Assembly (NCBI GenBank): GCA_017999645.1
Contig: JAGNLJ010000004.1
Coordinates: 62,001-126,000 of the forward strand
Length of the DNA: 64,000 bases
Direction of reading: 5' to 3'
Source: Alphaproteobacteria bacterium
GTDB taxonomy: Bacteria; Pseudomonadota; Alphaproteobacteria; Micavibrionales; Micavibrionaceae
A program made the position numbers and the translations under genes. Below are positions 59,707-64,000 of the stretch, in pieces. The stretch's first letter is position 1. Every line of letters begins with the position of its first letter. The notes under the pieces are model-generated. The model saw only the letters and a list, made by a program, of their open reading frames with translations. It did no database searches and was not told the origin of the DNA.

Positions 59707-60672
59707 ATGACCAATTTGCATTCCAAAGTCCTGATTATCGGATCCGGCCCGGCCGGGTACACCGCCGCGATTTACGCGGCGCGCGCGAATCTGAAGCCTA
59801 TTCTTGTGACCGGGCATGAGCCCGGCGGCCAGTTGATGGTGACGACGGATGTCGAAAATTATCCCGGATTCAAAGATGTGATCCAGGGCCCGTGGCTGAT
59901 GGAGCAGATGAAGGCTCAGGCCGAACATGTGGGCACACAACTGGTTACGGATTACATCACCAATGTCGATCTGAATTCCCGCCCCTTCCGTGCGACGGGC
60001 GATGGCGGCACGGTTTATACAGGCGATACGTTGATTATTGCGACGGGCGCGAAGGCCCGATGGCTTGGGTTGCCGAGCGAGGAAAAATTCCGCGGCAAGG
60101 GCGTTTCGGCCTGCGCGACATGCGACGGGTTTTTCTTCAAAGGCAAAGAGGTCGCGATTGTCGGCGGCGGCAACACGGCGGCGGAAGAAGCGATATTCCT
60201 GACGAATTTCTGCTCGAAGGTCACACTCATTCACCGCCGCGATTCACTGAAGGCTGAAAAAATTCTGCAGGACCGATTATTCAAAAATCCGAAGATCAAT
60301 GTTCTCTGGGACACGGTGATCGAGGAAGTTGTCGGTGATGCGAGCGGGATGACGGGCCTTAAGCTGAAAAACATCAAGACCAGCAAGCAAAGCGATTTCA
60401 CCGCACATGGATTGTTTGTTGCGATCGGCCATGACCCGGCGACGGAATTGTTCAAGGGTAAGCTCAAGATGGATGAAAGCGGATACATCATCAAAGCGCC
60501 GGATTCCACGGCGACGGAGATTCCGGGCGTGTTCGCAGCGGGCGACGTGGCCGACCATGTTTACAGACAAGCTGTCACGGCGGCCGGCATGGGATGCATG
60601 GCGGCGCTGGAAGCTGACAGGTTCCTGGCCGCGCACGTAAACGATAAAAAACAGGCGGAAGCCGCGGAATAA
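59707..60672 (+). CDS. trxB: Thioredoxin-disulfide reductase
   Basis: The 321-residue flavoenzyme reduces thioredoxin with NADPH. It has the FAD fold IIGSGPAGYTAAIYAARA, EPGGQLMVTTDVENYPGF, the redox pair CATC, the NADPH fold VAIVGGGNTAAEEAIFL and C-terminal GVFAAGDVADHVYRQAVTAAGMGCMAALEA. It is followed after 1 nt by lsrB, so redox regulator and enzyme are cotranscribed. Confidence 0.95.
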   Translation: MTNLHSKVLIIGSGPAGYTAAIYAARANLKPILVTGHEPGGQLMVTTDVENYPGFKDVIQGPWLMEQMKAQAEHVGTQLVTDYITNVDLNSRPFRATGDGGTVYTGDTLIIATGAKARWLGLPSEEKFRGKGVSACATCDGFFFKGKEVAIVGGGNTAAEEAIFLTNFCSKVTLIHRRDSLKAEKILQDRLFKNPKINVLWDTVIEEVVGDASGMTGLKLKNIKTSKQSDFTAHGLFVAIGHDPATELFKGKLKMDESGYIIKAPDSTATEIPGVFAAGDVADHVYRQAVTAAGMGCMAALEADRFLAAHVNDKKQAEAAE

Positions 60673-60673
60673 T

Positions 60674-61591
60674 ATGGACTGGGACAAGCTCCGCATCTTT
60701 CACGCCGTCGCCGAGTCAGGAAGCCTGACGGGCGCAGGCAAAGCGCTTTCCCTCAGCCAGCCAGCCGTATCGCGCCAGATCGCGACACTTGAAGAAAATC
60801 TTGGAGTCGGATTATTCAGACGTCACGCACGCGGCCTTGTGCTCACCGAGCAAGGCGAAATTCTTTATGAGACGACGAAAGATATTTTTCACCGGCTTTC
60901 GGTGGTCAAGGGACAGCTTGGCGATACGCGCAAGCGCCCGGAAGGGCAATTGACGATCACGGTTTCGGAATTCGTCGCCTCGACATGGCTCGCGCAGAAG
61001 CTCGTGCAGTTCCGGGAAACCTATCCCGATATCCAGTTGACGATTCTCGTCGACGATAAAATTCTCAAAATCAATCTCAAGGAAGCGGATGCGGCCCTGC
61101 GCCTCAGCAAGCCGACGGAATCGGATTTGATTCACCGCCACCTCGCCTCGATTCACTTTCACATCTGCGGCTCGAAATCGTATTTCGAGAAATACGGACG
61201 TCCAAAAATTGTGAACGAGTTGAAAAACCACAGGCTGATCGGCGTGCCGGAAAATATCACCTGGCCGTTCTCAAATCCGAACTGGTTGTTCGAAGTTGCG
61301 GGCGTGAACGAGCGCACGGCCAATAATCTGATGAAAACGAACTCCATGCAGGCGATTCACCAGGCAGTAAAAACCGGCGCGGGGCTCGCGGTGCTGCCCG
61401 ATTACCTGATCGCGAGCGACGAATCCCTGGAGGCCGTATTGCCCCGGCTGGAGCGTCCGCCGGTTGATATGTACTTCATTTATGCCGAGGAGCGGCGCAA
61501 TTCGCGCCGCCTGACGGCATTCCGCGACTTCCTGCTGGAGCACATACAGGCGACTCCTTTCGCGCTTCGGCCTCCGGAATCAAACAGCTAA
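60674..61591 (+). CDS. lsrB: LysR-type regulator, LsrB/VtlR-like
   Basis: The 305-residue protein has the HTH at 1-60 (MDWDKLRIFHAVAESGSLTGAGKALSLSQPAVSRQIATLE) and then RRHARGLVLTEQGE. The opening MDWDKLRIFHA and the effector domain (DADAALRL-type EADAALRLSKPTESDLI, GAGLAVLPDYL) resemble LsrB of Sinorhizobium/Agrobacterium and VtlR of Brucella. As I recall, those regulators lie beside trxB and control AbcR small RNAs encoded next to them. Here trxB is 1 nt upstream and an AbcR-like RNA lies downstream. The symbol is by similarity and context. Confidence 0.82.
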   Translation: MDWDKLRIFHAVAESGSLTGAGKALSLSQPAVSRQIATLEENLGVGLFRRHARGLVLTEQGEILYETTKDIFHRLSVVKGQLGDTRKRPEGQLTITVSEFVASTWLAQKLVQFRETYPDIQLTILVDDKILKINLKEADAALRLSKPTESDLIHRHLASIHFHICGSKSYFEKYGRPKIVNELKNHRLIGVPENITWPFSNPNWLFEVAGVNERTANNLMKTNSMQAIHQAVKTGAGLAVLPDYLIASDESLEAVLPRLERPPVDMYFIYAEERRNSRRLTAFRDFLLEHIQATPFALRPPESNS

Positions 61592-61621
61592 AACATTGAT
61601 TTTAAAGATTATTTTTTTATC

Positions 61622-61640
61622 CCATGCATAAAATGCATGG
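61622..61640. promoter_or_regulatory. 19-bp perfect dyad, candidate LsrB/VtlR binding site
   Basis: CCATGCAT-AAA-ATGCATGG contains an ATGCAT-N3-ATGCAT dyad of LysR-box type. Its centre is about 66 bp before the predicted small-RNA start (61697), matching the usual -65 recognition site of LysR activators. Confidence 0.55.
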
Positions 61641-61684
61641 CTGACATCGCGAATTGGCCGTAGAGCCTTATGGCTGGAAAAGTA

Positions 61685-61690
61685 TATAAA
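61685..61690 (+). promoter_or_regulatory. Putative -10 element of the small RNA gene
   Basis: TATAAA about 7 nt before the first stem of the RNA. No good -35 lies 16-18 nt upstream (AGAGCC region), which fits an activator-dependent promoter. Confidence 0.45.
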
Positions 61691-61696
61691 CTCACG

Positions 61697-61805
61697 CATC
61701 GACGCCACACATTGCGTCGAAAAGGACCCGCAAGGGTTCTTACGTCTCCCAGACGTGAAACCTCCCTGTTCAACTCGCCGGACCTTTATGGTCCGGTTTT
61801 TTTTT
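61697..61805 (+). ncRNA. AbcR-like (alpha-r15-type) trans-acting small RNA
   Basis: Predicted RNA of about 109 nt. Stem 1 is TCGACGC/GCGTCGA (61699-61720). Stem 2 is AGGACCC-GCAA-GGGTTCT (61723-61740, GNRA loop, one G-U). Stem 3 is ACGTC/GACGT (61742-61756) with loop TCCCA. A single-stranded GAAACCTCCCTGTTCAACTC and a terminator follow. The two CUCCC segments are complementary to Shine-Dalgarno sequences, the trait of AbcR1/AbcR2 of Agrobacterium, Brucella and Sinorhizobium, which repress ABC transporter mRNAs with Hfq. The location next to the LsrB-like gene matches. Start and end are inferred. Confidence 0.65.
61778..61805 (+). terminator. Rho-independent terminator of the small RNA
   Basis: CCGGACC / GGTCCGG with loop TTTAT, followed by nine T residues. 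It ends 14 nt before the patatin start codon. Confidence 0.92.
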
Positions 61806-61819
61806 GATATATCTGTTAA

Positions 61820-64000
<2,181 letters not shown>

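Follow-up and report, generated by a model that had tools for sequence, protein, structure and literature searches.

The intergenic stretch behind the LysR-type regulator gene near the end of the window (the whole 64-kb stretch of DNA that was analysed) very probably contains a small RNA gene, whose transcription would be activated by the regulator, an LsrB/VtlR ortholog, from the palindrome ATGC-N7-GCAT upstream of the RNA. Sequence comparison across genomes places the regulator within the LsrB/VtlR clade, links it to the RNA throughout the class, and detects a double-CUCCC core, a covarying terminator, and an operator that is absent from seven LsrB-less relatives. In the proposed mechanism, LsrB would bind the operator, whose position would correspond to that of the published LsrB site of rhizobial abcR1, and recruit RNA polymerase to a promoter whose −35 element is weak. 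The CUCCC sequences of the transcript would then pair with Shine-Dalgarno regions, presumably on Hfq, and this pairing would lower the translation of a set of mRNAs.

The regulator and its neighborhood

The gene order at the end of the window is lrp (reverse strand), an ELM1-type gene, trxB, the LysR gene, the intergenic RNA element, a patatin-like gene, and an aspartate aminotransferase gene (reverse strand). The thioredoxin reductase gene trxB (59,707–60,672, forward strand; TIGR01292 above cut-off) is the conserved upstream neighbor of the LysR gene (60,674–61,591, forward strand), which encodes a protein of 305 aa with Pfam HTH_1 and LysR_substrate matches, one of two HTH_1 LysR-type matches in this genome of 2.06 Mb in 23 contigs. 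trxB also lies upstream of lsrB/vtlR in S. meliloti and R. leguminosarum, and the rhizobial-like neighborhood proposed in the first-pass annotation was recovered, as the order lrp, trxB, lsrB, sRNA was found in rhizobial loci too. Excerpts of PMC7486931 report the trxB-vtlR order as conserved in the class, so that part was already known. The nearest named match seen was Micavibrio sp. UBA7657 (90.6% identity across 2,653 bases), a name filed under Bdellovibrionota in the NCBI taxonomy. Named rows such as Azospirillum nevertheless put the class sampled here, that of the window, within Alphaproteobacteria; L032, from a genome of that class, is almost identical to Azospirillum griseum in the regulator tree. 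Regarding the S. meliloti entry used here, CP090106.1, it is labelled pSymB, and its 3.7 Mb and lsrB-abcR locus make it look like the chromosome. The patatin-like gene (61,820–63,079) begins just 3′ of the terminator of the RNA, shows a likeness to the CBASS phospholipase family below the cut-off (90.7 of 200 bits), and has a match 3′ of the RNA in five of the compared loci (L217, L219, L222, L223, and L224).

In a tree of 59 rows, the LysR protein fell within a clade of 49 rows together with S. meliloti LsrB and the annotated R. leguminosarum VtlR, a clade that also takes in LsrB-like proteins from many families. Its support was 100/100, with a branch length of 3.0 from 10 paralogs, which came from relatives only and make up a small outgroup, in a tree whose bootstrap had not settled. 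A position outside this clade was looked for and did not occur; the LsrB/VtlR assignment suggested earlier thus stands with full support for the common clade. The window protein is 41% identical to S. meliloti LsrB (39/60 in the DNA-binding part).

The cysteine pair conserved in rhizobial LsrB (PMC11975290, excerpts), C144 and C273 of A. tumefaciens, is absent from the window protein, which has A140 and I269 at the columns equated with them by reading the alignment, allowing for two residues missing from the start of the S. meliloti row. With Ala140 and Ile269 in place of the cysteines, a redox signal via that pair is not supported for the window copy. Cys was found at each of the two matching columns in only 4 of the 49 clade rows, and the pair may be characteristic of rhizobia and not of the family as a whole, which suggests that the ancestral LsrB signal differs from the cysteine redox switch described in Agrobacterium. 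Separately, plasmid p2 of Azospirillum brasilense carries an extra LsrB-like gene, next to which neither an annotated trxB nor an operator or RNA match was found.

The RNA element, its distribution, and its relation to described families

The predicted sRNA is about 110 nt long (61,696–61,805, forward strand), its start having been placed 61 nt past GCAT by analogy with S. meliloti PabcR1. Folding of 61,697–61,806 gave −44.2 kcal/mol against −24.6 ± 3.2 for 200 shuffles, none of which was as low (z −6.13). CUCCC occurs twice in the element: once in the hairpin ACGTCTCCCAGACGT (61,742–61,756, forward strand), supported by the fold and the alignments and including a CUCCCA with the letters of AbcR motif M1, and once in the unpaired core GAAACCTCCCTGTTCAACT (61,757–61,775, forward strand), near-invariant in alignments A1 and A2 and predicted to be the anti-Shine-Dalgarno seed. 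Such pairing is inferred because the CUCCC is exposed, and from published work on AbcR and alpha-r8. A Rho-independent terminator follows (61,777–61,805, stem 61,777–61,797, forward strand), with a covarying stem and a T-run. The aligned copies share this order, from hairpins of variable sequence to ACGUCUCCCAGACGU, then GAAACCUCCCUGUUCAACU, and finally the covarying terminator. In 89 aligned copies, 9 of the 12 pairs had changed on both sides, and 0 of 500 shuffles reached any of five measures; 88 of the 93 both-sided changes fell in the terminator stem, and the CUCCC hairpin was nearly invariant. The structured intergenic RNA with two CUCCC segments and a terminator behind trxB-lsrB, as first described from the window, is confirmed by both the fold and the comparison, and lack of covariation in relatives, the refuting outcome tested on these 89 copies, did not occur. 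A coding reading of the element was set aside because the terminator loops vary by lengths not divisible by three.

At the order level, the element was found directly downstream at 27 of 30 LysR loci (a single locus from each genome, including that of the window), and is therefore beyond chance. Among the other three loci (L023, L026, and L029), which had no element downstream of the LysR gene, it was found on another contig in two genomes (G035 for L026 and G032 for L029), and no match was detected in the third (G017 for L023, 84% complete). These matches were obtained with R1, a covariance model built from the 27 order-level sequences, which scored 105.3 bits on the window (61,682–61,805), the sole copy in its own genome at E 1. 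Three further genomes with the LysR gene (G005, G019, and G020) had an R1 match downstream as well. In all, R1 matched 39 of 58 relatives, own genome counted, and 171 of 386 class genomes (E 0.01), the latter being an upper figure because weak, unlinked matches may include alpha-r8 or SorX kin. In the phylum sample, 18 of 299 genomes matched (E 0.001), all 18 from the same class, the number of genomes from other classes among the 299 not being given.

LsrB was detected in 233 of the 386 class genomes (E 1e-45), of which 71 had no R1 match and 162 carried both; 9 genomes had the RNA only, and 144 had neither. Among the 150 R1 matches listed, 82 (in 79 genomes) followed a listed LsrB on its own strand at less than 1 kb and 12 more at 1–10 kb; for 37 no LsrB was listed in the genome, for 12 it was on a different contig, and for 7 it was on the contig but in another position. 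When named genomes were searched with the RNA-core pattern alone, at least 118 stretches were obtained, and in 87 of the 118 listed LsrB was found upstream on the same strand, within 600 bases in 84 of them; for the other 31, ten had more than 1.5 kb of upstream sequence without LsrB, and the rest had shorter upstream sequence. The 80 titled stretches of these 118 (L099–L178) were all from Alphaproteobacteria by title, one Micavibrio among them. With LsrB and the RNA linked across genomes of the class, the circuit appears to extend beyond the families described, as the first-pass annotation had surmised. Two small genomes (G266 and G275; 1.8 and 1.6 Mb) each had multiple LsrB-like matches (5 and 3) as well as multiple RNA matches (5 and 4), which may reflect joint amplification of the pair.

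At the curated Rfam cut-offs, the window yielded three tRNAs and nothing else, so existing models do miss this copy, as had been thought possible; no match at cut-offs was found at 12 related LysR loci either. Membership of AbcR/ar15 (RF02345) was rejected: no match was detected in the window at E 10, and the rhizobial controls matched each their own model, with two ar15 RNAs above cut-off at each of the S. meliloti (110.2 and 106.5 bits), R. leguminosarum, and Shinella loci. Reciprocally, R1 had no match at these three loci at E 10 with default filters, and without filters its scores at the abcR locus of S. meliloti were 5.5 bits (E 0.41) and 4.5 bits; neither did it match at the LsrB-like loci of Azospirillum p2 or Methylobacterium. 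Excerpts of PMC8844928 place ar15 in most Rhizobiaceae and Brucellaceae, and in the 386 class genomes, a sample that may hold no Rhizobiaceae, four weak ar15 matches were found, none above cut-off.

The likeness to the LsrB/VtlR-AbcR1/AbcR2 systems of Rhizobiaceae and Brucellaceae extends to the regulator clade, the upstream trxB, the downstream sRNA, the operator at a corresponding distance, and the hairpin CUCCCA. However, the RNAs do not match each other's model, the window has one copy instead of two, its RNA lacks motif M2 (GUUCCC), and its regulator lacks the conserved cysteines. The M1 letters (61,746–61,751; motif defined in PMC5461406, excerpts) do lie in a hairpin, but not in the first one, and are half paired. 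The label AbcR-like proposed earlier thus fits the locus, the operator, and the CUCCC motif, but not the RNA family, and AbcR is most likely the counterpart of the window sRNA in the rhizobial loci examined. That the window RNA is instead a true AbcR whose sequence has drifted past the models is unlikely: the shared locus, operator position, and hairpin CUCCCA speak for it, but besides the failure of each model on the other's RNA and the missing M2, the core CCUCCCUGUU is retained in most aligned copies, and the divergent L047 (46.0 bits), which sits beside the rhizobial and Methylobacterium rows in the tree (86/65), still has CCTCCCTGTTCAACTT.

At loose settings, the best Rfam match in the window was SorX (RF02784), with 33.5 bits (E 1e-6; cut-off 46.6), and SorX scored at most 39.5 bits at eight loci from other genomes; SorY (RF02651), at 19.7 of 111 bits, and alpha-r8 (suhB/mmgR, RF00519), at 21.7 against a cut-off of 41 bits, were also below threshold in the window. 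SorX and SorY of Rhodobacter share with the window RNA a hairpin, then ACCUCCCUGUU, then a terminator, and at the sequence level the window RNA resembles SorX more than AbcR/ar15. The LsrB homolog of Paracoccus ferrooxidans, which has a long branch in the regulator tree, is followed by a SorX match that exceeds the cut-off (49.3 bits) and to which R1 gives 33.7 bits. Alpha-r8 (mmgR/suhB; SisA-D of Caulobacter) is likewise an sRNA that occurs widely in Alphaproteobacteria and has a terminator and a core, UUUCCUCCCU, that is unpaired, but is mostly linked to an FGase gene and not to lsrB (PMC12559287, excerpts). Taken as a whole, the element is most likely an LsrB-activated anti-Shine-Dalgarno sRNA, spread through the class and scoring below the Rfam cut-offs where scanned.

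Predicted operator and promoter upstream of the RNA

The predicted LsrB site is the palindrome ATGCATAAAATGCAT (61,624–61,638, forward strand), of the form ATGC-N7-GCAT, which is overlapped by an exact VtlR box GCAT-N3-TG-N3-T, GCATggcTGacaT (61,635–61,647, forward strand). The box consensus was taken from PMC7486931 and PMC8844928, where, in the excerpts available, it lies at −61 to −49 of PabcR1; reporter and gel-shift data in those of PMC8844928 contradict a published statement concerning meliloti. The palindrome also matches at every letter the LsrB motif TGCA-N6-GCAT of PnfeR1, from work on NfeR1 in which point changes abolish gel shifts (PMC10746234, excerpts).

One palindrome per 64 kb is the chance level (expected 0.8), and the operator claim therefore rests on the comparison across loci, with patterns that were picked after inspecting them. 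Among the listed LsrB-adjacent named loci, ATGC-N7-GCAT was found upstream of the sRNA in 68 of 84, against a mean of 0.66 and a maximum of 3 in 100 shuffles, and half-site spacings other than N7 (3–12) in 0–3 loci. The strict motif was present in 17 of the 30 listed named loci not counted as adjacent, many of them with short upstream sequence, and in 19 of the 27 order loci, rising to 23 of 27 for the relaxed form. The exact VtlR box was rarer than the palindrome, with 11 of the 27 order loci and 21 of the 84 listed named loci (shuffle mean 2.2; opposite strand 5).

A predicted −10 element, TATATA (61,683–61,688, forward strand), lies 48 nt from the start of the VtlR box, and across loci the spacing between the operator and an A/T-rich −10 is constant; when the loci were aligned on the operator, the −35 region showed a weak TGG. 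The S. meliloti counterpart, GCATGGCTGTCAT, begins 61 nt upstream of the ar15 match; only the 48-nt spacing is independent, because the start of the sRNA was itself set from the 61-nt distance.

In seven relatives that carry the RNA, no LsrB ortholog was detected at E 1e-20 (G003, G013, G018, G033, G037, G042, and G049), G018 being 84% complete and G033 having a 29% match that falls among the paralogs in the tree. They provide a natural experiment, in that genomes lacking the activator also lack its operator but retain the RNA. The strict operator was found in 0 of these 7 against 22 of 32 LsrB-bearing relatives, and the relaxed one in 0 of 7 against 26 of 32 (Fisher 1e-4, shared ancestry ignored). 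Six of the 32 LsrB-bearing relatives thus lack even the relaxed motif, and one of them, G012, has a promoter score of 10 of 12, equal to the best LsrB-less ones. In G003 and G013, the RNA is still flanked by lrp, ELM1, trxB, and the aminotransferase gene, nothing matching lsrB lies between it and trxB, and both genomes carry TTGACG/C-N17-TATAAC hexamers. The −35 scores of LsrB-less and LsrB-bearing loci differed (Mann-Whitney p 0.004), a noisy comparison, since a score of 5 of 6 is also reached at four LsrB-bearing loci, and the LsrB-less G042 and G049 score 4 and 3. In eight further class genomes with the RNA and without LsrB (E 1e-45), the relaxed motif was found in one (G216). At two of the LsrB-less loci (L220 and L221, from G037 and G042), the RNA lies near an aminotransferase gene, with no LsrB or trxB match nearby, and the core is still kept.

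These data also bear on whether the RNA needs a promoter of its own, or arises by processing of the trxB-lsrB transcript at its 3′ end, in the way that SorX is released from RSP_0847. Its place directly behind lsrB on the same strand would suit such processing, as would the absence of a sigma-70 promoter in a consensus scan upstream of the RNA, and SorX of R. sphaeroides, the nearest Rfam match, is derived from the 3′ UTR of an OmpR-type gene, SorY having its own promoter (PMC6238624, excerpts). Nevertheless, this origin seems quite improbable, since operator and −10 are conserved at a fixed spacing, the RNA persists without lsrB, with the consensus-like hexamers of G003 and G013, and in G032, G035, and Tistrella it is separated from lsrB and preceded by the motif, in the last case nearly 5 kb from lsrB with both motifs about 110–120 nt before the model match. 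It is scarcely credible that the stretch amounts to no more than a conserved 3′ UTR and terminator belonging to the lsrB operon: a strong terminator does stand directly behind lsrB, but the most conserved part is the 19-nt unpaired core, dispensable for termination, and the RNA survives where lsrB is absent.

Possible ancestry and predicted targets of the LsrB-linked sRNA

A near-invariant sRNA beside the same regulator in many Alphaproteobacteria implies that the rhizobial circuit is likely much older and likely first worked with a different sRNA. One scenario, to which we give slightly less than an even chance, is that LsrB and the double-CUCCC sRNA are the ancestral alphaproteobacterial pair, that SorX and SorY of Rhodobacterales descend from this sRNA, and that in Rhizobiaceae an unrelated AbcR took over the promoter and operator, with cysteine redox sensing added to LsrB only there. 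If true, a rhizobial, host-interaction circuit becomes class-wide. R1 would then serve as a model for an sRNA matched in many of the sampled class genomes and missed at the Rfam cut-offs, both in the window and at the other loci scanned. In the titles, abstract openings, and passages available from a mostly open-access literature, no description of this lsrB-adjacent RNA family outside rhizobia was found.

Regarding the possible function of the RNA, an Hfq match was found in 53 of 58 genomes, own genome included. In the relatives, AACAGGGAG-N4-13-ATG had matches in 51 of 58 genomes, the 39 genomes with the RNA accounting for 184 sites and the 19 without it for 50, a difference that kinship and completeness may explain. 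A set of 80 chosen sites and 35 loci (115 in all, some sites twice) gave 91 candidate ORFs, most of them without annotation; no transporters were seen among the annotated ones. Only two families, both recognized by eye, recur across genomes, PrkA-like (three) and phenylalanine-hydroxylase-like (two), and are taken as leads only. The 64-kb window itself has one CAGGGAG-N4-13-ATG site, which is the chance level. In the whole own genome, ten sites ACAGGGAG-N4-13-ATG were found, against none for the reversed pattern, and six of them lead into ORFs of at least 40 aa from the ATG; three of these six had no Pfam match, and the others correspond to a MerR-type regulator, a 6-pyruvoyl-tetrahydropterin-synthase-type enzyme, and a FlgA-type chaperone.
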